The position numbers and the translations under genes are program-made. Below the pieces are notes generated by a model, which was given only the letters and a program-made list of their open reading frames with translations, was not told the origin of the DNA and ran no database searches. This document shows positions 1 to 28,814 of a stretch of DNA of 28,814 nucleotides, piece by piece (position 1 is the first letter of the stretch; each line of letters starts with the position of its first letter). The DNA is from a virus: positions 1 to 28,814 of IMG/VR virus record IMGVR_UViG_3300042197_002668; one strand, written 5' to 3'.

Positions 1-127
1 TGGCCCCATGAACCGGGCCCAAGACGAAGAACTGCGCGTCCTCGTGGCCACCTATGCGGCCCTCCGGGAGCATCATCGCAAGGCCGTTGCTGACCGCGCG
101 CCCGGGCCCGTCTGCCGTGACCTTCGG
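1..127. repeat. Terminal direct repeat, left copy (genome closure overlap)
   Basis: These 127 bases are identical to the last 127 bases of the window (28688-28814). The first 11 bases are the end of the gene at 28432-28698, whose stop (TGA at 9-11) overlaps the ATG at 8. Reading frames run cleanly across the junction when the ends are joined, so this is best explained by a circular assembly overlap; a genuine short terminal repeat is the alternative. Confidence 0.95.
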
Positions 128-1300: not shown

Positions 1301-1509
1301 AGCCCGGGGACCGTTGCCCCAAGAGGGGCTGTGGTGGCGTGCTGCGCGTGCGCATGGACGTCCCGCGCGTCGGCCCGGGGATCTTGGAGTGCTCCGCGCG
1401 CCCGTTCGTCTCGCCCGTGGAGCTGGCCCGCTTGCCCGAGGACGAACCCGGCCCCGTCACCCACACGTGGTTACTGTGGCGCAACGAAGACGGAGGGCTG
1501 TCAACGTGA
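1297..1509 (+). CDS. Small cysteine-containing protein, 70 aa, possible zinc ribbon
   Basis: The start is GTG at 1297, overlapping the previous stop as GTGA. The N-terminus has CPKRGCGG followed by a predicted strand, and LECS lies about 20 residues later. The spacing suggests a small zinc ribbon, though only three cysteines are visible, so a fourth ligand would have to be something else. There is no clear ribosome binding site, so coupling to the upstream gene is likely. No function can be assigned. Confidence 0.6.
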   Translation: MKPGDRCPKRGCGGVLRVRMDVPRVGPGILECSARPFVSPVELARLPEDEPGPVTHTWLLWRNEDGGLST

Positions 1510-1937
1510 GACGCTACCTTGTAGAAGCGGGCCGCGTGGTGCGTGAGCTGGCCCCGGGCGAGCGTGCCACGGTTGGACAGGTCCTCCGGACGGCCCGCGC
1601 GGTGATGCCCTCTGCGCGCGTCTGTAAGGTGCCCACGGGAGCCCGCCCGCGCGCCGACCTCTACTTACACCCGGTGGACCTTGCGCGCGTCCTGCGGGCC
1701 GCTGGAGGCCTCTCCGTGCGTGCTTGGGTTGCGGACGCTCTAGCGTCTGCCGACCTCGCCACGCTGCGCGTGCGCTTGCTGCATTTGGACTTCGACGGAG
1801 GGGTGGCCCGAACCTCCCTACCGCTGATCGTGACGGACGCTCGCCACGCGGAGCTCTTGGACGTTGCGAAGGGGGTAGGCCTGCCGTTGCAGTCGGTGGC
1901 CCGCATGGCGATCCAAGTCGCCCTTGAGCGTGACTGA
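1506..1937 (+). CDS. Hypothetical protein with a probable C-terminal ribbon-helix-helix domain, 143 aa
   Basis: The start is GTG at 1506, with GGAGGG about 8 bases upstream and a GTGA overlap with the previous gene. The last 40 residues (about 103-143) follow the ribbon-helix-helix pattern of CopG/Arc-type regulators: a strand with alternating residues (TSLPLIVTD), a helix (ARHAELLDVAKGVG), a turn (LPLQ) and a helix (SVARMAIQVALE). The first 100 residues are not recognised. If the domain call is right, this is a second DNA-binding protein in the early operon and could autoregulate it. The fold assignment is by pattern only. Confidence 0.6.
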   Translation: MRRYLVEAGRVVRELAPGERATVGQVLRTARAVMPSARVCKVPTGARPRADLYLHPVDLARVLRAAGGLSVRAWVADALASADLATLRVRLLHLDFDGGVARTSLPLIVTDARHAELLDVAKGVGLPLQSVARMAIQVALERD

Positions 1938-2356
1938 TGCGCCGGACGCCGTGCTTTGAGTGCGGCGGGCCTGCGTCGACAGATCACCACGTCGTGCCAC
2001 GGTCACGCGGAGGACGTCATACCGTGCCCCTCTGCGAGCGGTGCCACGCGCTGGCGCATGACGCATCCTTGGTGGCCCTGTCGTCGGCCGGACGGCAACG
2101 CGCCAAGGAACGTGGCGACTACCAAGGGGGACGCCCGCCCTTCGGTTACCGGCTTGAGGCTGGCGACCTCGTGGCGGTGGAGGCTGAACAGCGGACCATT
2201 GCGCGGATCGGTCAGCTCTACTTGGACGGCGCGACGGCTTACGCGATCTGCGTGGCGTTGGAGCGGGAGGGTCACAGACCGCGCGGGGCTCGTTGGAACC
2301 CGGGGATCGTGATCCGGATCCTCACCCGTCTTGGCTTGTGGTCCCGCTCTTCTTGA
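1937..2356 (+). CDS. HNH nuclease domain fused to a serine-recombinase 'Recombinase' domain, 139 aa
   Basis: Residues 1-50 form an HNH/zinc module: CFEC near the start, then DHHVVPRSRGG, then CERCHALAH, giving two CxxC pairs and the HH core. Residues about 65-135 match the Recombinase domain (the DNA-binding region of large serine recombinases): GGRPPFGY, an EQRTIARIGQLYLDG helix, TAYAICVALEREGH, then W followed by VIRILTRL. The resolvase catalytic N-terminus with its active serine is absent, and no neighbouring gene supplies it. The ATG overlaps the previous stop (TGATG). It is the last gene of the plus-strand operon, and its 3' end overlaps the convergent lysis gene by 35 bases. The role could be site-specific DNA cleavage, homing or packaging; integrase activity is unlikely without the catalytic domain. 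Confidence 0.75.
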   Translation: MRRTPCFECGGPASTDHHVVPRSRGGRHTVPLCERCHALAHDASLVALSSAGRQRAKERGDYQGGRPPFGYRLEAGDLVAVEAEQRTIARIGQLYLDGATAYAICVALEREGHRPRGARWNPGIVIRILTRLGLWSRSS

Positions 2357-2684
2357 CGAAGGTCTCTGCCGCGTCGACGCCCCGCTCCACCACGGGGAGG
2401 GCCGACTTGGCGAGCTCAAGGGCGCGCTCGAGGACGGCCACGGTCCGGATCAACCCGTCGCGGAGGAAGTAGCCCAAGGCAAGCAGGGCCGCAGAGACCG
2501 GGCCTTCCCCGAGCTCCAGCGACACGCCCGGCAAGACAGGCTCCCCGGTGGCCTCTTGGGCGAGCGCGCCGCCACAAGCCGCAAGGAAGAAGCCGCCCGC
2601 CAAGACGGCAAGGAAGCGACCCGCCCGAGGGGCCACCGCCGAGAGGACAAGAAGCACGCAGCACAGGGTGGCGACGGCGATCAT
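2322..2684 (-). CDS. Holin-like membrane protein, 120 aa
   Basis: The N-terminus is very hydrophobic, with two predicted membrane segments (residues about 2-18 and 24-40) separated by PRAGR, and a weaker hydrophobic stretch at about 65-77. A basic/acidic helical C-terminus follows. Its ATG overlaps the endolysin stop (ATGA), and it is the last gene of the late operon, which fits a holin. The second segment ends in LAAC (Cys37), a lipobox-like sequence, so an outer-membrane lipoprotein or spanin role is an alternative. The longer open frame upstream lies inside the endolysin gene and is not used. Its 3' end overlaps the plus-strand HNH gene. Confidence 0.6.
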   Translation of the reverse strand: MIAVATLCCVLLVLSAVAPRAGRFLAVLAGGFFLAACGGALAQEATGEPVLPGVSLELGEGPVSAALLALGYFLRDGLIRTVAVLERALELAKSALPVVERGVDAAETFVKKSGTTSQDG

Positions 2685-3124
2685 TTTGGACTCCACGGGG
2701 ACGCGCCTGCGTCGGTGATCTTGAGAAGTTGCAGGCGGTTCTTCCTGCCGAGCGCGTAGGACACGTGGATCCAAGCCCCGCCGCCCTTGCGTTCTACGAT
2801 CAGCTGATCGTATTCGGTGGCGCAAGCGATGATCGCCCGGGCCACGTCTTCAACCTCCATGCCGTCAACCTTGATGTCTGCCGCTTCGCCGCGCATGTGC
2901 TGTGACGTCTTGGACCCGCCAACCGCCGCGTTGACGGCCGGGCTACGGTATGCGCTGTTGACGCGGACGGGCTTGCCGAGGTGCCGCCGGAGCGGGTCAA
3001 GGACTGCCGCGCAGAGGGCCACGAGGGCCGCTTGTTCGTCTTCGCCCGGGTCGTTTGTGGGCGCGCGTGACGTGACCGTGAGCTCTGCCCACGTGAAGTA
3101 CTGACCGGGCCTTTCGGTGATCAT
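2681..3124 (-). CDS. Endolysin, M15-type peptidase (peptidoglycan L,D- or D,D-peptidase), 147 aa
   Basis: The M15A zinc peptidase signature is present: SQHMRGEAAD with zinc ligands His76 and Asp83, and a second site WIHVSY with His120, preceded by QLIVE. The family cleaves peptide cross-bridges of peptidoglycan and serves many phages as lysin. The length of about 150 aa with no extra binding domain is typical for phages of Gram-negative hosts. The start at 3124 overlaps the previous gene's stop (ATGA); the longer open frame upstream runs through that gene and is a shadow. The holin-like gene follows with an ATGA overlap, so the pair forms the lysis cassette. Confidence 0.88.
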   Translation of the reverse strand: MITERPGQYFTWAELTVTSRAPTNDPGEDEQAALVALCAAVLDPLRRHLGKPVRVNSAYRSPAVNAAVGGSKTSQHMRGEAADIKVDGMEVEDVARAIIACATEYDQLIVERKGGGAWIHVSYALGRKNRLQLLKITDAGASPWSPK

Positions 3125-3456
3125 GCGGGCTTCCCCTTCTTGGCTGCGCGGAGGTTGGCGAACACGGGCCGCTTGCGCCACGGCTTCGGCTTGATGTCCG
3201 CGCACGCCTGCCGGATCACGAGGGCCAAGGCAGTCGCTCCCGTCGCAAGGTCGGCCGCGTCCTCTGCGTCGACGTAGGGAAGATCGTCGAAGACCTCACG
3301 GCACAGATCGTATATTTCCGCTTCCAGCTGGTACGGATCGTTGGTGGAGCGGAGCACGTCCGGGAGGTGCTCCACGAGGTCCGTCACGACGTCCGCAAGG
3401 AAGTCTGCCGGACGCGGAAGGATCGCGCGCAAGACGCCATTCAAGAGCGGAAGCAT
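3121..3456 (-). CDS. Hypothetical protein, 111 aa, between tail tip and endolysin genes
   Basis: No family recognised. It is predicted to be helical, with a hydrophobic N-terminus (LLNGVLRAILP), an acidic middle (ADVVTDLVEHLPDVL, DLPYVDAEDAADL) and a basic C-terminus (KPKPWRKRP, AAKKGKPA). A strong ribosome binding site (AGGGGG) precedes the ATG. Genes at this position are often lysis accessories or small virion proteins, but the sequence does not decide between them. Confidence 0.7.
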   Translation of the reverse strand: MLPLLNGVLRAILPRPADFLADVVTDLVEHLPDVLRSTNDPYQLEAEIYDLCREVFDDLPYVDAEDAADLATGATALALVIRQACADIKPKPWRKRPVFANLRAAKKGKPA

Positions 3457-16768: not shown

Positions 16769-18661
16769 TCAAACCCCGCCGGTTTCGGGCGGGGCGGTAG
16801 AGCCCTCCACGACGTCCGCGAACAACGCGGCGATCTGATCCTCCGGAACCATCGGCAACGCGATCCGAACTGCCGCAAAGCCCGCCGACTTCGGGAGCTC
16901 GCCCTTGGCGACGGCCGAGACAGTAGCCACGAGGAACTCCGCTTGCGCGCCGTTCAAGGCAACCTCCACGGCTGCGGACGCTGCGACGTCTTCCACGGGC
17001 GGGGGTGCCGATTGAGCTTCCATGGCTGCGGCGTCTTCCGGCTCTTCGCCCTCTGCGAGCTCCACGGCTGCGGACTCCATGCCTTCGTGCTCCGGGCCTT
17101 CTTCGCTGTCGTCTTCCATGTGATAGGCCTCAGACGGTACGCCCTCAAGCAGAGCTTGGACTTCGGCCAGCTCCGAGCGCAGCGGCCCGGCTTGCTCAAG
17201 GATTGCGTCAAGCCGAAGAACCGCTGCCTCCACCGAGGGTGCTGCAAGCCCGGCCTCACGCTGGATGCGGGCCAGCTCAAGCAGGGCCTCTTCGCGACTC
17301 ATGCCCGGGTTGCGCGCCATCATGACGTCCGAGGAAGACGCGAAGCCGTTCTTAAGGCTCCACTCTTGATCTTCCCGCTCCGCGCGCTCTTCGTCGGGGG
17401 ACTTGCCGACCTCGTGGTAAACGATGCCAACGCCCGCCGGGTCAAGGCCCGCAAGGTACGCCGCGTGGCGCACGGTGCGGAGATCGGCCTTGCGGCAGAG
17501 AGGCCCGCGCCGCCGCTGCTCTTCGCGCTTGGTCTCGTTGGTGAGGTGGATCGCAACGCCGCTCATGGGGTTGGCCCCGGCCCGCACGGCGTCCGTTGGG
17601 GTGATCCCCATGTCGGCCGCGAGCTGCGAGCTGTACGCCATGGCGTAGGCCTGCAGGGCCGGTAGGGTGTCGACCTCCCCGATCTCCGTGACGGACGGCT
17701 GGACGCCCGATTCCAAGGGGACGTGGTAGACAAGATCCCCCGGCTCCGCGTCAAGGCTCATGGTCTGCATGCCGTCGTCTGTCCCACGCACGGTAGACCC
17801 GATCGGCTTGGCGTTGAACACAAGCGCAACCTTGCCGGTAGCGTTGAGGGCTGCGCGGTTGCATGCCGAGAAGAGCATCATTGCTTGTAGGGTGCCGCGC
17901 GCCACGCTTCGGCCGCGCTGCCAGTTCCACAGATCCCCAACGTCCCACGAGCGGTGGATGGACCACGGCAGGAACGGGGAACCGTTCAGCCGCCGCCACG
18001 GGTAGGTGTCCCCCTCGAGGGCGTCCGAACCCGTGGCCTCAAACGTGACGTCACGGCCGAGCTTGCCCGAGCCTTCGGCAAGGTAGACGCCCCACGAGGG
18101 GAAGGCCGGATCGCTGACGTCCCAAACGTCCCACGTGTAGACCGCCTCTTGGTTGATCCGCCGGATGCGAAGCCGCCGCATGACCACGGGCTCTGTCGGA
18201 TCGTCTTGGTGGGCCGTGGCCCAAAGCCGGTGGGACGGCACGACGGAGAACGAGACAAGATCGTCGGCTTCTTCCCCTTCCCCGCTCCCCGGCTCCACGA
18301 GGACGGCGCAAGAACCGCACGTGTAGGTGAGGTACTCCGCGTGCTGTTGCTTCGGCCATAGGTCGTCGCACAGCTCCGCAAGCGGGGCCGCTGACAGGCC
18401 AACAAGGGTGGGCGCGCGGCCGTAATGTCCGGGCGTGCTGACGGCATGGCCGATCGCCGCAAGGGCGTTGCGGGCCGTGTCGGGAGGGCCCCAACGCGCA
18501 AGCCGGTCCCGGCTGACGTATTGCTGAAAGTAGTCCTCAGAGATCGCGTCCACGTCCTCCATCGCGATCAAGTAGCGGACCTCTTGGACGCGCACGCGCT
18601 CCCGTTCGTAGTCCGGGAACATCTCGATCGCTGGCGTGAGGTTGACGTTTGCGCCGCTCAT
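16769..18661 (-). CDS. Portal protein, 630 aa
   Basis: Large protein directly downstream of the large terminase. Residues 1-500 have the mixed helix/strand pattern and tryptophan-rich loops of a portal (YLIAMEDVDAISEDYF; SWDVGDLWNWQRGRS; LAADMGITPTDAV). The C-terminal tail holds an acidic low-complexity linker (about 515-565) and a small helical domain starting ALNGAQAEFLVATV, then VAKGELPKSAG; an LNGAQ domain of this kind ends many portals of this class. The dodecameric portal would be the DNA channel and the terminase docking site. The ATG overlaps the terminase stop (ATGA). Confidence 0.88.
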   Translation of the reverse strand: MSGANVNLTPAIEMFPDYERERVRVQEVRYLIAMEDVDAISEDYFQQYVSRDRLARWGPPDTARNALAAIGHAVSTPGHYGRAPTLVGLSAAPLAELCDDLWPKQQHAEYLTYTCGSCAVLVEPGSGEGEEADDLVSFSVVPSHRLWATAHQDDPTEPVVMRRLRIRRINQEAVYTWDVWDVSDPAFPSWGVYLAEGSGKLGRDVTFEATGSDALEGDTYPWRRLNGSPFLPWSIHRSWDVGDLWNWQRGRSVARGTLQAMMLFSACNRAALNATGKVALVFNAKPIGSTVRGTDDGMQTMSLDAEPGDLVYHVPLESGVQPSVTEIGEVDTLPALQAYAMAYSSQLAADMGITPTDAVRAGANPMSGVAIHLTNETKREEQRRRGPLCRKADLRTVRHAAYLAGLDPAGVGIVYHEVGKSPDEERAEREDQEWSLKNGFASSSDVMMARNPGMSREEALLELARIQREAGLAAPSVEAAVLRLDAILEQAGPLRSELAEVQALLEGVPSEAYHMEDDSEEGPEHEGMESAAVELAEGEEPEDAAAMEAQSAPPPVEDVAASAAVEVALNGAQAEFLVATVSAVAKGELPKSAGFAAVRIALPMVPEDQIAALFADVVEGSTAPPETGGV

Positions 18662-20097
18662 TTCCTGCCCCCGGATGCGCCGTAGCTGGCGCGGATGGAG
18701 AAGCCGATCCGTCTCTGCGTTCCCTTCTCCAACGCATAGCGCGCGGCGTCAAGGACGTCCTTGTGGGGGTCTCGACTGTCCCCCTTGAACCGCCTAACCG
18801 CCTCCACGAGAGCGTTGCAACGCGGGTGGATAACGGCGCGCCCCTCCGCAAACGCGGCGTTGAGAAGCCCCAGCCCGTACCACACCGAGCCCGAGCCCTT
18901 GACGGGGGTATGGATCACCCGGGCCCGCTTGTCGTTGGAGCTGATCCCCGCTTGATACCACAGCTGCGCGCGGAGGATCGCGTTGCTCTTGGACTTCATG
19001 TGCCGCCCGTCGCCCGTGTCGCGGTCCCCGATCCATTCGTCCACGTGTTCGTATTTGAGGCCCACGCTGGCAAGCATGTCAAGGATCGCCTTGGCGTCAA
19101 TCTCCGGGGATGACACCTCCTGCCCTCCGGCTTCGGCGATGAACCAGTAACGCGGGGAGTCGGTGGTTCCGCCGGACACGGCAAGCAGGACCGCCCATTG
19201 CTTCCCGATGACGATCCCGTGGTCGATCCCCACCACGATCTGACAGTCCGCCGGGAGGTCGCGAAGCTCGAACGGTTGCGTAGCGTTGTCAGTGAAGGCG
19301 GTAAGGTAGCGATCCTTGACGACGGGTTCCCACGCTGCCTTGACCCGCATGGGAACTTCCACTTCGGGCCACGCCTTGATCGCCGTCTCGATCCGCTCTG
19401 CCGTGAGGAACGGCCGCGCGTAGCCCTCAGGCCATGCGTTCTCCGGCGTCATGGCCGCGTAATGCTCCGAGAAGACGCCGCCGTCTACAAGCTCCCGGAG
19501 CCAACCTTGATCGGGCATGTTGAGGGTGGGCGTGAAGGCGATCGTGAAGGTGCCGTTGTGGCGGAGCAAACGCGGTTGGAGCTCGCCGTAAGCCCGGGCC
19601 GGTGACGGTTCGTCGCAGTAGACCGCGTGGATGGTCGCCCCTGCCAAGGTCTGCGGGTCTTGCCGGTAGGTGCGGAGAGAGATCACCGAACCCGCGCCCG
19701 GGCCCTTGACGAACCGGATCGCGGGGATCTTCGCGCCGCGGACTCCTTCCCCCTGGACGAAGTAGATCTTCGGGTCAATCTCGTGCTTGGGTAGAATGTC
19801 CCACAGCTTCTCAAGGATCGCCCCGGGTTGGGCCATCTGTTCCAAGGACTCCGAGACAAGCATGACGTTGATCGGGCCAGCGTGGCGCCGGGGCCGGTAG
19901 GGGTTGGTGCCCCGGATCTCGTGGAGAAGGTCCGCAACGAGGACCGTCGTCTTCCCCACTTGGTTAGCCGCGCGGATCAAGCGGCACGTTGAGCCGTCCG
20001 CAAGAACGCCACGCTGCCACGGGGACCACGACGCCCACGCAAGCGGGTCGCGCTCCACAAGCCCGGCCACCTTGGCCCACGCTCCGATCCCCGCCAT
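18658..20097 (-). CDS. terL: Terminase large subunit, 479 aa
   Basis: Packaging motor with ATPase and nuclease domains. Visible motifs are a Walker A variant ANQVGKT (44-50), Walker B IHAVYCDEP (156-164), a coupling motif near TIAFTPT (185-191), and nuclease acidic residues Asp292 (VVGIDHG), Asp358/Asp360 (WIGDRD) and Asp450 (DVLDAARYAL). The length is normal. I chose ATG 20097; a TTG at 20103 overlapping the previous stop is the alternative and would add two residues. The gene follows the small terminase and overlaps the portal start by 4 bases. Confidence 0.93.
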   Translation of the reverse strand: MAGIGAWAKVAGLVERDPLAWASWSPWQRGVLADGSTCRLIRAANQVGKTTVLVADLLHEIRGTNPYRPRRHAGPINVMLVSESLEQMAQPGAILEKLWDILPKHEIDPKIYFVQGEGVRGAKIPAIRFVKGPGAGSVISLRTYRQDPQTLAGATIHAVYCDEPSPARAYGELQPRLLRHNGTFTIAFTPTLNMPDQGWLRELVDGGVFSEHYAAMTPENAWPEGYARPFLTAERIETAIKAWPEVEVPMRVKAAWEPVVKDRYLTAFTDNATQPFELRDLPADCQIVVGIDHGIVIGKQWAVLLAVSGGTTDSPRYWFIAEAGGQEVSSPEIDAKAILDMLASVGLKYEHVDEWIGDRDTGDGRHMKSKSNAILRAQLWYQAGISSNDKRARVIHTPVKGSGSVWYGLGLLNAAFAEGRAVIHPRCNALVEAVRRFKGDSRDPHKDVLDAARYALEKGTQRRIGFSIRASYGASGGRK

Positions 20098-20099
20098 GG

Positions 20100-20609
20100 T
20101 CAAGCGACAATCCCACGCTTGCGGAGGACGGCCACCACGTCAGCCGCCAGCGCCGCCGGGAGGGCATGCGCCGCCGTCACGAGCTGTTCCCGGATCTCTT
20201 CGGGCGTCATGCCGCGTTCGTCGCGTGCGCGCTCGAGGGCCGCGCGGAGGTCACGCCACACCTCGTCCTGCATGCGGAGCAGCGCCACGCGCCCCGAGTC
20301 CGAAGCGGCGTTGGGGAGCTCCGCTTGGGTCTGCCCCCAGCGAAAGACCCAGTAGTCTAGCTCCGTTGCCGTCAGCGGATCGAAGGTGCGCCCCTCCGCG
20401 TCGTCCACCTTGGGCGGTGGGGGAAGCATGACGAGATCCCCAACGCCCTTTGCGGCCTTGCGCTGCGCTTCGCCCCACCAGCGGGACAGGGTGGAGGCGT
20501 GGACGCCGAGCTGACGGGACAGGCGTTGGAAGTTGGGCTGCGCGTCGGTGCCCTCCACGCTGGCGCGCATGACGTCCAACGCTTCGGCCTTCTCTTGGCG
20601 GTTGATCAT
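20100..20609 (-). CDS. terS: Terminase small subunit, 169 aa
   Basis: The N-terminal helix-turn-helix (about residues 27-46, FQRLSRQLGVHASTLSRWW) is followed by a helical oligomerisation region (ELPNAASDSGRVALLRMQDE and VWRDLRAALERARDERG) and a C-terminal helix that may contact the large subunit. It lies immediately before the large terminase. The ATG overlaps the stop of the RuvC-like gene (ATGA), with GGGGG upstream; the much longer open frame upstream is a shadow of that gene. It would recognise the packaging site, possibly the repeat-rich DNA about 100-190 bases upstream. Confidence 0.82.
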   Translation of the reverse strand: MINRQEKAEALDVMRASVEGTDAQPNFQRLSRQLGVHASTLSRWWGEAQRKAAKGVGDLVMLPPPPKVDDAEGRTFDPLTATELDYWVFRWGQTQAELPNAASDSGRVALLRMQDEVWRDLRAALERARDERGMTPEEIREQLVTAAHALPAALAADVVAVLRKRGIVA

Positions 20610-21412
20610 TCGTCCCCCTTTGCATGCTTGCATGGTTGGTTGCCGGGCTCGAGGTCTGCAAACGACGGTCGTAGCGCGCGCAAAACGCGAGAGGCGGGGA
20701 CCCCCGCCCCCCCTGCGCCCTCGGATACACCCCTTTGGACGCCTATTTCGGCCATTTCGGCCACTTTCGGCCCCTTCGCGTTGCGCTTCGTTGCGTTTCG
20801 GGTTGCATCCTTGCCGCCCTCGTTGGACTTCTCGTTGGACGCAGCCCATACCGCCAGCCCAAGGGCTTCGGCCGCATGATCGGGCGCGTTGCGAACCGCC
20901 GCCGGGAGCGTCAGCCCGTGCGGTTGCCATGCCTCCAGCGGGACGCCCGGTGAACGGTCCCCGCGCAACCAGTCCAACGCCACCCGCTTCGCCCGCTCCC
21001 GCTCGAGGGCCACGGGCCGCCCGAAGTAGACTGCCCGCCACGTCGACACGTCCGGCCGCTGTACCGCCACGCCTTGAGCCTCGAGCACGCCAACCGCCAC
21101 GCCAGCCGCCGTTGCCAACGCTACGGGCGCGGGACGGCCCCTGTAAGGCCGCACGGCTTCACACGCCGCCACGGTAGCCTCCACGCCCCGCAGCGACGCC
21201 ACAAGGGCCATTGCGAGCGTTCCGTGGCGCGTCACCCGGTACGCCTCCCCGTCCGCCTCGTGGAGCTCCACACAAGCCGCTAGGGCCCTCCACCACGCCA
21301 GCCGAACCGTACCTGCCATGAGATCCACGACGGCCAGCCCGCCAGCCCGTGAACCCGGGTCCACGCCCACCGCTGTTCCACGTGTTCCTCGTCTGTTCCA
21401 CGTCTGTTCCAC
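20606..21412 (-). CDS. RuvC-like Holliday junction resolvase, 268 aa
   Basis: RNase H-fold nuclease with the RuvC signature: VGVDPGSRAGGLAVVD with Asp18, a second acidic residue in VAACEAVRP (Glu85), and APDHAAEALGLAVWA with Asp178 and Glu182. Such enzymes resolve branched DNA before packaging. Residues about 191-268 are a low-complexity tail (ATRNATKRNAKGPK, EGAGGAGVP) that is not part of the fold. I chose GTG 21412 because GGGAG lies 6 bases upstream; GTG 21454 is also open but would translate the 9-bp repeats (as MEHVEQ). A still later GTG just before VDPG is possible. It is the first gene of the late operon. Confidence 0.8.
   Translation of the reverse strand: MEQTWNRRGTRGTAVGVDPGSRAGGLAVVDLMAGTVRLAWWRALAACVELHEADGEAYRVTRHGTLAMALVASLRGVEATVAACEAVRPYRGRPAPVALATAAGVAVGVLEAQGVAVQRPDVSTWRAVYFGRPVALERERAKRVALDWLRGDRSPGVPLEAWQPHGLTLPAAVRNAPDHAAEALGLAVWAASNEKSNEGGKDATRNATKRNAKGPKVAEMAEIGVQRGVSEGAGGAGVPASRVLRALRPSFADLEPGNQPCKHAKGDE
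20701..20720 (-). other. Predicted G-quadruplex motif
   Basis: The minus strand reads GGG CGCA GGGGGGG C GGGGG, which satisfies four runs of three or more G with loops of 1 to 7 bases. It lies in the coding strand of the low-complexity tail of the RuvC-like gene, about 90 bases before the small terminase start. Confidence 0.55.
20745..20800. repeat. Short tandem repeats of about 10 bp (TTTCGGCC and TTGCGYTTCG)
   Basis: TTTCGGCC occurs three times at 9-11 base spacing (20746-20774), then TTGCGCTTCG and TTGCGTTTCG stand in tandem (20781-20800). They lie inside the non-conserved tail of the RuvC-like gene, upstream of the small terminase. The period is close to one helical turn, as expected for a protein-binding array such as a packaging site. 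Confidence 0.6.
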
Positions 21413-21455
21413 GTCGATCTCCCTGCCCGTTACAGGCTGTTCCACGTGTTCCACG
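21374..21455. repeat. Left cluster of 9-bp iterons, TGTTCCACG x6
   Basis: Units start at 21374, 21383 (one mismatch, TGTTCCTCG), 21394, 21405, 21438 and 21447, all in the plus orientation. Start-to-start distances are 9, 11, 11, 33 and 9, so most units lie close to one helical turn or a multiple of it. Each unit is half of the bacterial parS palindrome (TGTTCCAC/GTGGAACA), but no full palindrome occurs. The cluster overlaps the first codons and leader of the RuvC-like gene. Confidence 0.85.
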
Positions 21456-21482
21456 TCCTTCTAGAAGATCATCATCTACAGG

Positions 21483-21515
21483 ACACACACACACACACGC
21501 ACACACGCGCACATG
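21483..21515. repeat. Alternating purine-pyrimidine tract, mostly (AC)n
   Basis: Strict purine-pyrimidine alternation over 33 bases: eight AC units, then a mix of GC, AC and AT steps. It lies at the centre between the two iteron clusters. Such tracts can adopt Z-DNA under negative supercoiling. A G-rich and T-rich stretch (21515-21540) follows. Confidence 0.85.
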
Positions 21516-21544
21516 GGGTCTGGGGGGTGTTTTTAGCCCCGAGA

Positions 21545-21626
21545 CGTGGAACACGTGGAACGCCCTGTAGCCGCCTAGTAGATCGGCCTGTTCCGCGTCG
21601 GTGGAACACGTGCCACACGTGGAACG
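21545..21626. repeat. Right cluster of 9-bp iterons, mostly inverted (CGTGGAACA/G)
   Basis: Units are CGTGGAACA (21545-21553), CGTGGAACG (21554-21562), one direct TGTTCCGCG (21589-21597), then three contiguous 9-mers, GGTGGAACA, CGTGCCACA and CGTGGAACG (21600-21626). With the left cluster it forms an inverted repeat: 21438-21457 pairs with 21543-21562 at 19 of 20 positions. Confidence 0.82.
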
Positions 21627-26209: not shown

Positions 26210-26950
26210 ATGGTCGACTATCTTGCGCTGATCAAGATTTCCGAAGCCGCCCACAAGTCCGGCCTGTACGCCAAGTTCAAGTCCGCAGAGCAGGTCTTTG
26301 CCGTCATGGCGCGCGGGGCCGAGATCGGCTTGCCGCCCTTCACCGCGTGCGAGGTGTTCCACGTCATTCAAGGGACGCCCCGGATCGGCAAGTCGGGCCT
26401 TGCCATGCTCCTTGGGATGCACGGCTACAAGCTCACGTGGAAGCAGAACGACGCGGCGGCGGCGGAAGTTGTCGCCAGCCACCCGCAACGTGGCGACTTT
26501 ACCAGCCGCTTCACGCTCGAAGACGCGAAGCGTGCCGGGTACACCAAGAACCCCAAATACAACACCGAGCCCGCCGACATGCTCGCCAGCCGCGCCCTCT
26601 CCCGGGTGGTGTCGACCTTCGCCGCGCACGTCCTTGGCGCGTCTCCGCTGCTCCTCGAGGACGACGGCCCCGCGCCTGCGCCCGTGACCATCTCTGCGCC
26701 CGCCGTGCTGGCCCTTCCCGCGCCGCCCGTGGTGGACGTGGCCGAAGTGTTGGAGCTGCCCGCCCGCGCGCCCACAGAGGCCAATGCGGCCGTTTCCAAG
26801 GCGTCCACGTGGCTTGAGGCCAAGGGCCTGCTTGAAACCGCCGTGGAGGCCTTCGGGCCGGTAGCCGGGTGGACGGATGAAACGCTCGCGGAGGTGCGCG
26901 CTTGGGCCACCGCCCGCGCCGCCGCTGCCACCGACGGAGGTGCCGCGTGA
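26210..26950 (+). CDS. RecT-like single-strand annealing protein, 246 aa
   Basis: The core (about 10-145) follows the RecT-family pattern: a helix pair (FKSAEQVFAVMARGAEIGLP), PFTACEVFHVIQGTPRIGKS, a hydrophobic helix (LAMLLGMHGY), a DF motif region (RGDFTSRFTLEDAKRAG) and PADMLASRALSRVVSTFAAH with VLG. The C-terminus (about 150-246) is a Pro/Ala-rich linker with a small helical domain. These proteins anneal complementary strands during phage recombination and replication, usually with an exonuclease partner, and the next gene encodes one. GGAGG lies 7 bases before the ATG. Confidence 0.72.
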   Translation: MVDYLALIKISEAAHKSGLYAKFKSAEQVFAVMARGAEIGLPPFTACEVFHVIQGTPRIGKSGLAMLLGMHGYKLTWKQNDAAAAEVVASHPQRGDFTSRFTLEDAKRAGYTKNPKYNTEPADMLASRALSRVVSTFAAHVLGASPLLLEDDGPAPAPVTISAPAVLALPAPPVVDVAEVLELPARAPTEANAAVSKASTWLEAKGLLETAVEAFGPVAGWTDETLAEVRAWATARAAAATDGGAA

Positions 26951-27984
26951 ACCTCGTTCGCCCCACCTACCTTGCCTTGGCTTCGGACGCCTGCCCGCAT
27001 GCCGTGACGCTGGCCGAACAGGGTGCTCCCCGAGACCGCCGCCACTTTGCCGCCGGTCAAGCGGCCCACACGTACCTTGAAGCCGTGGCGCAAGGACAAG
27101 ACCCGGACGTTGCCGCCGCCGACCTGTTCGCCAAGGGGCGTGACGGGGTGGACGCGGAGGGGCCCTTGCCGTTGGACGCCATTGCAGAGGGCGTGGAGCT
27201 CGCCCGTCGGTGGCTCTCGAAGCACGGCCCGCCGCCCGCCGGGGCTCTGATCGAGGTGCCCTTGTCAGACGGGGTGCTGACGACCCGCATTGACGTAGGG
27301 TGGCTGGAAGAAGGGGAGGCCGGGCCGGTCGTCGTGATCCGCGACTGGAAGACCTCGTGGCGGGACGACGAAGGGCGGGTCTTGCGGACCCAAGCCAAGG
27401 TTCAGATCCTTTCGGCCCTTGCCACGTGGCCCGAAGCCGCCGCCGTCCGGGTGGAGATCGCCAACCTACGCCTTGGTGCGGTCTTCGGCGAGACAGTCCA
27501 GCGTGACGACGTCCGGATCGAGGGGTGGCGCGCGTTGCTCCATGCTGCCGCGAAGGCCCTGCAAGGGGAACGCCGCGCGTCTCCGGGGCCGGTCTGCCTG
27601 TCGTGCCCCTACGTGCTGGCATGCGCCCACGCTGACAACGCGCCCGGGGAGGTCGTCGGGGAATGGATCGCCGCCGCCGCCCGCGCGGACGCCTTGGAGA
27701 AAGCCGCCCGTGACGCCACGACGGAAGGACCGATCGCCGGGGTTGGTTGGTGGGCCACGGAGACGCGGACGCCCGTGGAGGGTGCCGCCGCGCGCCTTGC
27801 CGAACTGATGGGCTGGCCGGACGCTGCGGGCCTGCTTGAGCGGCTACGCCTTGGAACCGCCAACGTGGAGGCGGGGTTGAAGACCGTCTTTGCAGGGCGC
27901 ACGGGAGCGGCAGAACGTGAGGCCCACCTTGCGGAGCTGCTCACGACGAAGCCCTCCAAGCGGTGGGGCGTGCAGAAAAGTTGA
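26947..27984 (+). CDS. Cas4/RecB-type PD-(D/E)XK nuclease with Fe-S cysteine pattern, 345 aa
   Basis: Nuclease motifs in order: GQAAHTYLEA with His41, RIDVGWL with Asp116, IRDWKTSW with Asp133 and Lys135, and TQAKVQILSAL (148-158), matching the RecB/Cas4 superfamily. Four cysteines fit a 4Fe-4S cluster of the Cas4/AddB kind: Cys16 near the N-terminus and C-x2-C-x5-C at 217, 220 and 226. The remaining 110 residues are helical. It would supply the exonuclease that resects DNA for the RecT-like partner. The start is GTG 26947 with GGAGG 6 bases upstream and a GTGA overlap with that gene. Confidence 0.8.
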   Translation: MNLVRPTYLALASDACPHAVTLAEQGAPRDRRHFAAGQAAHTYLEAVAQGQDPDVAAADLFAKGRDGVDAEGPLPLDAIAEGVELARRWLSKHGPPPAGALIEVPLSDGVLTTRIDVGWLEEGEAGPVVVIRDWKTSWRDDEGRVLRTQAKVQILSALATWPEAAAVRVEIANLRLGAVFGETVQRDDVRIEGWRALLHAAAKALQGERRASPGPVCLSCPYVLACAHADNAPGEVVGEWIAAAARADALEKAARDATTEGPIAGVGWWATETRTPVEGAAARLAELMGWPDAAGLLERLRLGTANVEAGLKTVFAGRTGAAEREAHLAELLTTKPSKRWGVQKS

Positions 27985-28435: not shown

Positions 28436-28698
28436 CGTCCGCCGCCGTCCAGCTCCGCGCCGTGCTCGATGCCTTGGAGGCCCGCCGCTGGCACGTCACA
28501 GACGTTGACCTGTGCGGGGAAGCGTTCGACGTGGACGTTGACCTAGGGCGCGGCGTCGACCTCACGATCGCGTGGATCGATGGTCGCCACGTCCTTACCC
28601 CGTTTGGCCTGTCGCCCGCCCGCGTGCCCATCGTTGCGGACTCGTTGGGCCATGCGCTGCTCAAGCTTGACGCCTTGCTTGCCGAGTTGGCCCCATGA
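28432..28698 (+). CDS. Hypothetical protein, 88 aa
   Basis: No family recognised. An N-terminal helix (SAAVQLRAVLDALEARRW) is followed by alternating strands (VTDVDLCGEAFDVDVDLG, VDLTIAWIDG) and a C-terminal helix (ADSLGHALLKLDALLAELA). The ATG overlaps the previous stop (ATGA) and its own stop overlaps the next ATG. Its last 11 bases appear again at window positions 1-11. Confidence 0.7.
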   Translation: MTSAAVQLRAVLDALEARRWHVTDVDLCGEAFDVDVDLGRGVDLTIAWIDGRHVLTPFGLSPARVPIVADSLGHALLKLDALLAELAP

Positions 28699-28814
28699 AC
28701 CGGGCCCAAGACGAAGAACTGCGCGTCCTCGTGGCCACCTATGCGGCCCTCCGGGAGCATCATCGCAAGGCCGTTGCTGACCGCGCGCCCGGGCCCGTCT
28801 GCCGTGACCTTCGG
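28688..28814. repeat. Terminal direct repeat, right copy
   Basis: Identical to 1-127. Joining the ends at this overlap gives a 28,687-bp circle with an uninterrupted plus-strand operon. Confidence 0.95.
28695..28814 (+). CDS. 5' part of the 63-aa hypothetical gene, cut by the window end
   Basis: The first 40 codons of the gene annotated at 8-199, repeated because of the circular overlap. It is not a second gene copy. Confidence 0.9.
   Translation, partial: MNRAQDEELRVLVATYAALREHHRKAVADRAPGPVCRDLR

Follow-up and report, generated by a model that had tools for sequence, protein, structure and literature searches.

A 139-aa protein of an environmental phage joins an HNH nuclease domain to a DNA-binding module of the short serine recombinase type and is probably, to judge from sequence comparisons, intact and part of a family of stand-alone HNH nucleases, widespread in phages, that an exchangeable resolvase-type reader directs to specific sites. 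The gene lies in a virus record from IMG/VR (IMGVR_UViG_3300042197_002668), analyzed over its whole length of 28,814 nucleotides (hereafter the window). The fusion recurs in other phages with a constant HNH half and a variable reader, and in the window it occupies a place in a defined gene run; cleavage, site specificity and purpose are predicted properties.

The fusion gene in its phage genome

An exact 127-bp terminal repeat (window 1-127 and 28688-28814) indicates that the record contains the whole genome, which closes into a circle of 28,687 bp. The features relevant here are as follows.

1937..2356, plus strand: HNH-recombinase-reader fusion gene, 139 aa, a single ORF from ATG to TGA
1952..2062, plus strand: HNH domain, residues 6-42 (Pfam and family alignment; classical Asn absent)
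2087..2329, plus strand: short-serine-recombinase helix-E tail and DNA-binding module, residues 51-131 (Pfam, PHROG and profile comparison)
1506..1937, plus strand: gene preceding the fusion, without a family match, member of the same gene run
26210..26950, plus strand: RecT-like annealing protein (PHROG 4171, E 2e-16), near the head of the fusion's gene run
26902..27984, plus strand: PD-(D/E)XK exonuclease beside RecT (PHROG 69, PF12705)
2681..3205, minus strand: endolysin/peptidase gene past the fusion's end (PHROG 894, E 1e-35), marking the early-region boundary

Both halves of the protein scored above the curated Pfam cut-offs, confirming the initial annotation of an HNH and a Recombinase domain within one 139-aa ORF. 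PF01844 (HNH) matched residues 6-42 with 21.7 bits (cut-off 21.4), a segment that includes the CxxC pairs C6/C9 and C33/C36, and PF07508 (Recombinase) matched residues 83-131 with 22.9 bits (cut-off 21.1) over profile positions 2-51 of 102. The profile search advised for the Recombinase half also returned PHROG 95 (integrase) across residues 51-130 (E 1.5e-15), which places the start of the reader nearer to residue 51. In recombinases, helix E ends in this region, which directly follows the catalytic domain. The C-terminal end of the reader falls at about the same place as in short resolvases of 225-226 aa, and the reader is therefore not a truncated half-domain. Short serine resolvases (PF00239 plus a short Recombinase-type module) share the helix-E tail, the DNA-binding module and a similar C-terminal end with the fusion protein, but the latter has an HNH domain in place of the serine catalytic domain.

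A split gene or a decayed resolvase would be a different origin of such an arrangement. PF00239 (Resolvase) had no match in the window genome at E ≤ 1, and absence of this domain from a complete genome rules out both; no tyrosine integrase domain was found in the window genome either. Together with the junction at the helix-E boundary, this supports the earlier proposal that the HNH domain occupies the position of the resolvase catalytic domain, the two parts being joined where helix E meets the DNA-binding module.

The fusion is the last gene of a rightward run that crosses the circular join and includes the RecT-like and PD-(D/E)XK exonuclease genes. Its ATG and the stop codon of its upstream neighbor overlap in the sequence TGATG (1935-1939). 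Elsewhere in the genome, repeats of the TGTTCCACGT type are clustered at window 21374-21626 (7 direct and 3 inverted copies with one mismatch allowed, and 2 further copies elsewhere in the window), surrounding the gap between a RuvC-like gene and a VapE-like helicase gene; the cluster is perhaps an iteron-like array and replication origin.

Extent of the family and conservation of its HNH half

When the window protein was the sole query, peptide scans recovered no relatives from viral or genome contigs. The family was first reached by a two-domain DNA pattern, which identified P0002, another fused protein, of 170 aa and with about 46% identity to that of the window, and was extended with further patterns and a profile search. 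Those of the further DNA patterns that had six rather than seven unspecified bases before the proline cover part of the family only, and their matches were checked by translation. The profile search reported 119 matching stretches in IMG/VR, of which 80 loci were kept, and patterns and profile together gave 73 distinct fused proteins; the same fusion is thus present in other phages, where the initial annotation had recommended looking for it. Fused, colinear relatives in many unrelated viral contigs, together with two-part profile matches to PDB sequences, indicate that the fusion is more than a chance event. All ten of the diverse members compared with domain models matched both HNH and recombinase models, and in the recombinase profiles their breakpoints fell in one common region; none of the PHROG or Pfam models spanned the fusion.

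With the queries used, neither 50,697 phage records nor 72,556 plasmid records yielded a full-length relative. A DNA-pattern scan of genome contigs gave zero matches, a result that applies to members with CACCAC codons, the only ones that the pattern covers. An Acinetobacter BS46 endonuclease was rejected as a relative because it has the HNH alone in common. A literature search, outside which most subscription papers fell, found no publication describing the fusion. The collected proteins are recognizable as a widespread phage family without a name, its members coming from environmental phages.

Several loci departed from the common arrangement. L014 (8429-9262) and L020 encode a different HNH protein, joined to what appears by eye to be an SGNH/GDSL hydrolase domain, and were dropped from the family. 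In L018 (610-1015), an HNH of different spacing is followed by a recombinase-like G.VPYGY stretch, and the locus ends inside the ORF. Two phages each carry two different HNH-reader fusions close together (L035, 4120-4578 and 4771-5184; L057, 3-413 and 628-1095).

Thirteen residues of the HNH half were invariant in all 73 proteins (C6, C9, H17, H18, P21, G25, G26, T29, L32, C33, C36, H37 and H41), so that the His pair, the final His and both CxxC pairs are retained throughout. The classical central HNH Asn is absent from the whole family, most members having K there and the window protein H, ahead of the invariant T29; HNH activity is therefore predicted from conservation. When a profile of 45 members was compared with PDB sequences, its front half matched IscB HNH domains (E 1e-7 to 4e-6), a further IscB (4e-4) and McrA (7e-5), and its back half matched the SPbeta (YokA) and A118 serine integrases. 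The pattern CxxC...HH.VP...C..CH...H is common to the fusion family and IscB/McrA-type HNH domains. Unlike IscB, the fusion has no RuvC or guide-RNA part, and its Asn loop is about four residues shorter.

Rates of change and origin of the reader

Across the family alignment, mean pairwise identity was 71% for the HNH domain and 33% for the reader. Ratios of dN/dS were calculated from 210 pairs of the nin-type clade, and the window protein, having no close relative, lies outside these figures. The HNH domain was the slowest-evolving segment (0.035), below the neighboring NinB (0.070), NinG (0.083) and DUF3310-like (0.084) genes, and the reader evolved faster than these neighbors (0.109). Loci L133 and L128 are 93% identical in NinB, 92% in NinG and 92% in the HNH domain but 28% in the reader, which appears either to have been replaced or to have diverged far faster than all its surroundings. 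These patterns indicate that selection keeps the cutter constant and that the reader is sometimes exchanged behind an unchanged HNH.

In some cases the exchange was probably with a resolvase of the same phage. Over 88 aa, the L044 reader shares 60% identity with the reader of a full serine recombinase of its own phage (L044, 4002-4682), encoded two genes upstream, and at most 39% with that of any other fusion. Similarly, the fusions of L058, L060 and L091 have an 'LGN' reader subtype, and a recombinase of matching subtype is encoded near each of them. The readers of L058 (4998-5453), L060, L091 and L047 have no G..P[FY]GY entry motif and are instead of the LGN/GRP type seen in short resolvases. 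In the reader tree, well-supported branches imply two or more switches of label between fusion and recombinase (four in the best tree), and a single fusion clade was not rejected (AU p 0.09). The window reader was placed loosely among recombinases, without support.

Constant pairing of the fusion with a resolvase was ruled out. A recombinase was seen on 6 of 41 fusion-bearing contigs, the other 35, many of them fragments, showing none; in two of the six (G004 and G005), the resolvase present has a reader unlike that of the fusion. A resolvase partner is thus not required.

Gene contexts and predicted role

In marine-type phages, the gene order (names assigned by eye) was Erf-like, YqaJ-like, Cro-like, NinB, NinG, fusion, DUF3310-like, helicase and primase. 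NinG is therefore present beside the fusion, which rules out the idea that the fusion replaces it. Occupancy was assessed in phages picked by NinB alone, with 23 loci too short to judge. At NinB identities of at least 62%, the fusion lay between NinG and the DUF3310-like gene in 52 out of 52 informative loci, with no empty site among them; in the five NinB-selected loci without the fusion, NinB was about 42% identical. Other contexts were beside resolvase/ParA genes and, in L029 and its kin, next to terminase and portal genes in the opposite orientation; the terminase-side group comprises L029, L043, L053, L072 and L076.

We favor the reading of a stand-alone site-directed nuclease, in which the HNH domain would cut or nick DNA at a site picked by the C-terminal part, a helix-E tail and DNA-binding module of short-serine-resolvase origin. 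Exchange of the reader behind a constant cutter would then change the target between phages. The most likely use would be a site-specific break during infection that either serves the DNA metabolism of the phage itself or is aimed at competing DNA, the second corresponding to the anti-competitor cutter suggested by the initial annotation. Tentatively, a single HNH cutter held in a fixed slot may have been re-aimed repeatedly by captured serine-resolvase DNA-reading domains, cleaving resolvase-type sites in resident or competing DNA.

The initial annotation had also suggested a homing enzyme, which in its free-standing form would be a selfish gene that cleaves phage genomes lacking it, into which recombination then copies it. 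Such enzymes of the HNH type occur in lactococcal Skunavirus phages (PMC12724721); they and the fusion are both small phage-encoded HNH nucleases, and the part of that paper considered here makes no mention of a recombinase-type reader. HNH domains are frequent in homing enzymes, readers are exchanged, and the family is scattered over unrelated phages and contexts (the recombination operon, beside terminase, beside resolvase/ParA). Homing or other mobility may occur outside the nin-type clade in light of these scattered contexts, the neighboring copies in L035 and L057, and absence of the fusion from G003. The last is a distant colinear relative of the window phage (major capsid protein 50% and TerL 51% identical) that has exonuclease-like and RecT-like genes (by eye) near its lysis gene, and it is the one colinear relative compared in the window lineage; its lack of the gene also implies that the fusion is non-essential there. 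However, fixed occupancy in the nin-type clade sets the fusion apart from free-standing homing HNH enzymes and argues against simple homing, since every informative NinB-selected relative at 62% identity or more has it. In addition, the gene overlaps its neighbors in both the nin-type clade and the window, and no Rfam match pointed to an intron in the five sources searched (window, L044, L026, L021 and L074). We therefore consider homing an unlikely explanation for the family.

Two further readings appear improbable. One is a recombination or replication nuclease that acts on DNA structure, like NinG/Rap, with the reader providing general DNA affinity only. The fusion does directly follow NinB and NinG in the best-sampled clade and shares a run with RecT and the exonuclease in the window, but NinG already stands beside it in the former and in the latter the phage itself encodes a RuvC-like protein; moreover, wholesale replacement of the reader would be unexpected for a structure-specific enzyme. 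An equally doubtful reading is that of a non-catalytic DNA-binding protein or regulator, for instance of a resolvase site, whose HNH is a zinc-binding fold only. Loss of the classical Asn would fit this, as would the location of some members near a resolvase with a similar reader; however, the HH pair and both other histidines are invariant in the slowest-evolving segment of the protein, and a resolvase that it could regulate is absent from the window phage.

A packaging role, likewise suggested at the outset, fits one phage group better than the window. HNH enzymes of the HK97 gp74 type are packaging enzymes of phages, and the fusion of the L029 group resembles them in lying beside terminase and portal genes. 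The window fusion differs in carrying a recombinase reader and in its position, which is not next to terminase: terminase is at 18658-20103, about 10 kb away on the 28,687-bp circle, so that packaging is not suggested there.

HNH enzymes are frequent in phages, and it is rarely known what they target, whereas in this family the predicted reader is a recognizable recombinase module, and the proximity of a resolvase with a similar reader in a few phages suggests candidate target sites. The specificity of a phage HNH family for its sites can thereby be put to a direct test. A cutter that stays conserved while its readers can be exchanged would illustrate how nucleases are re-targeted in nature.
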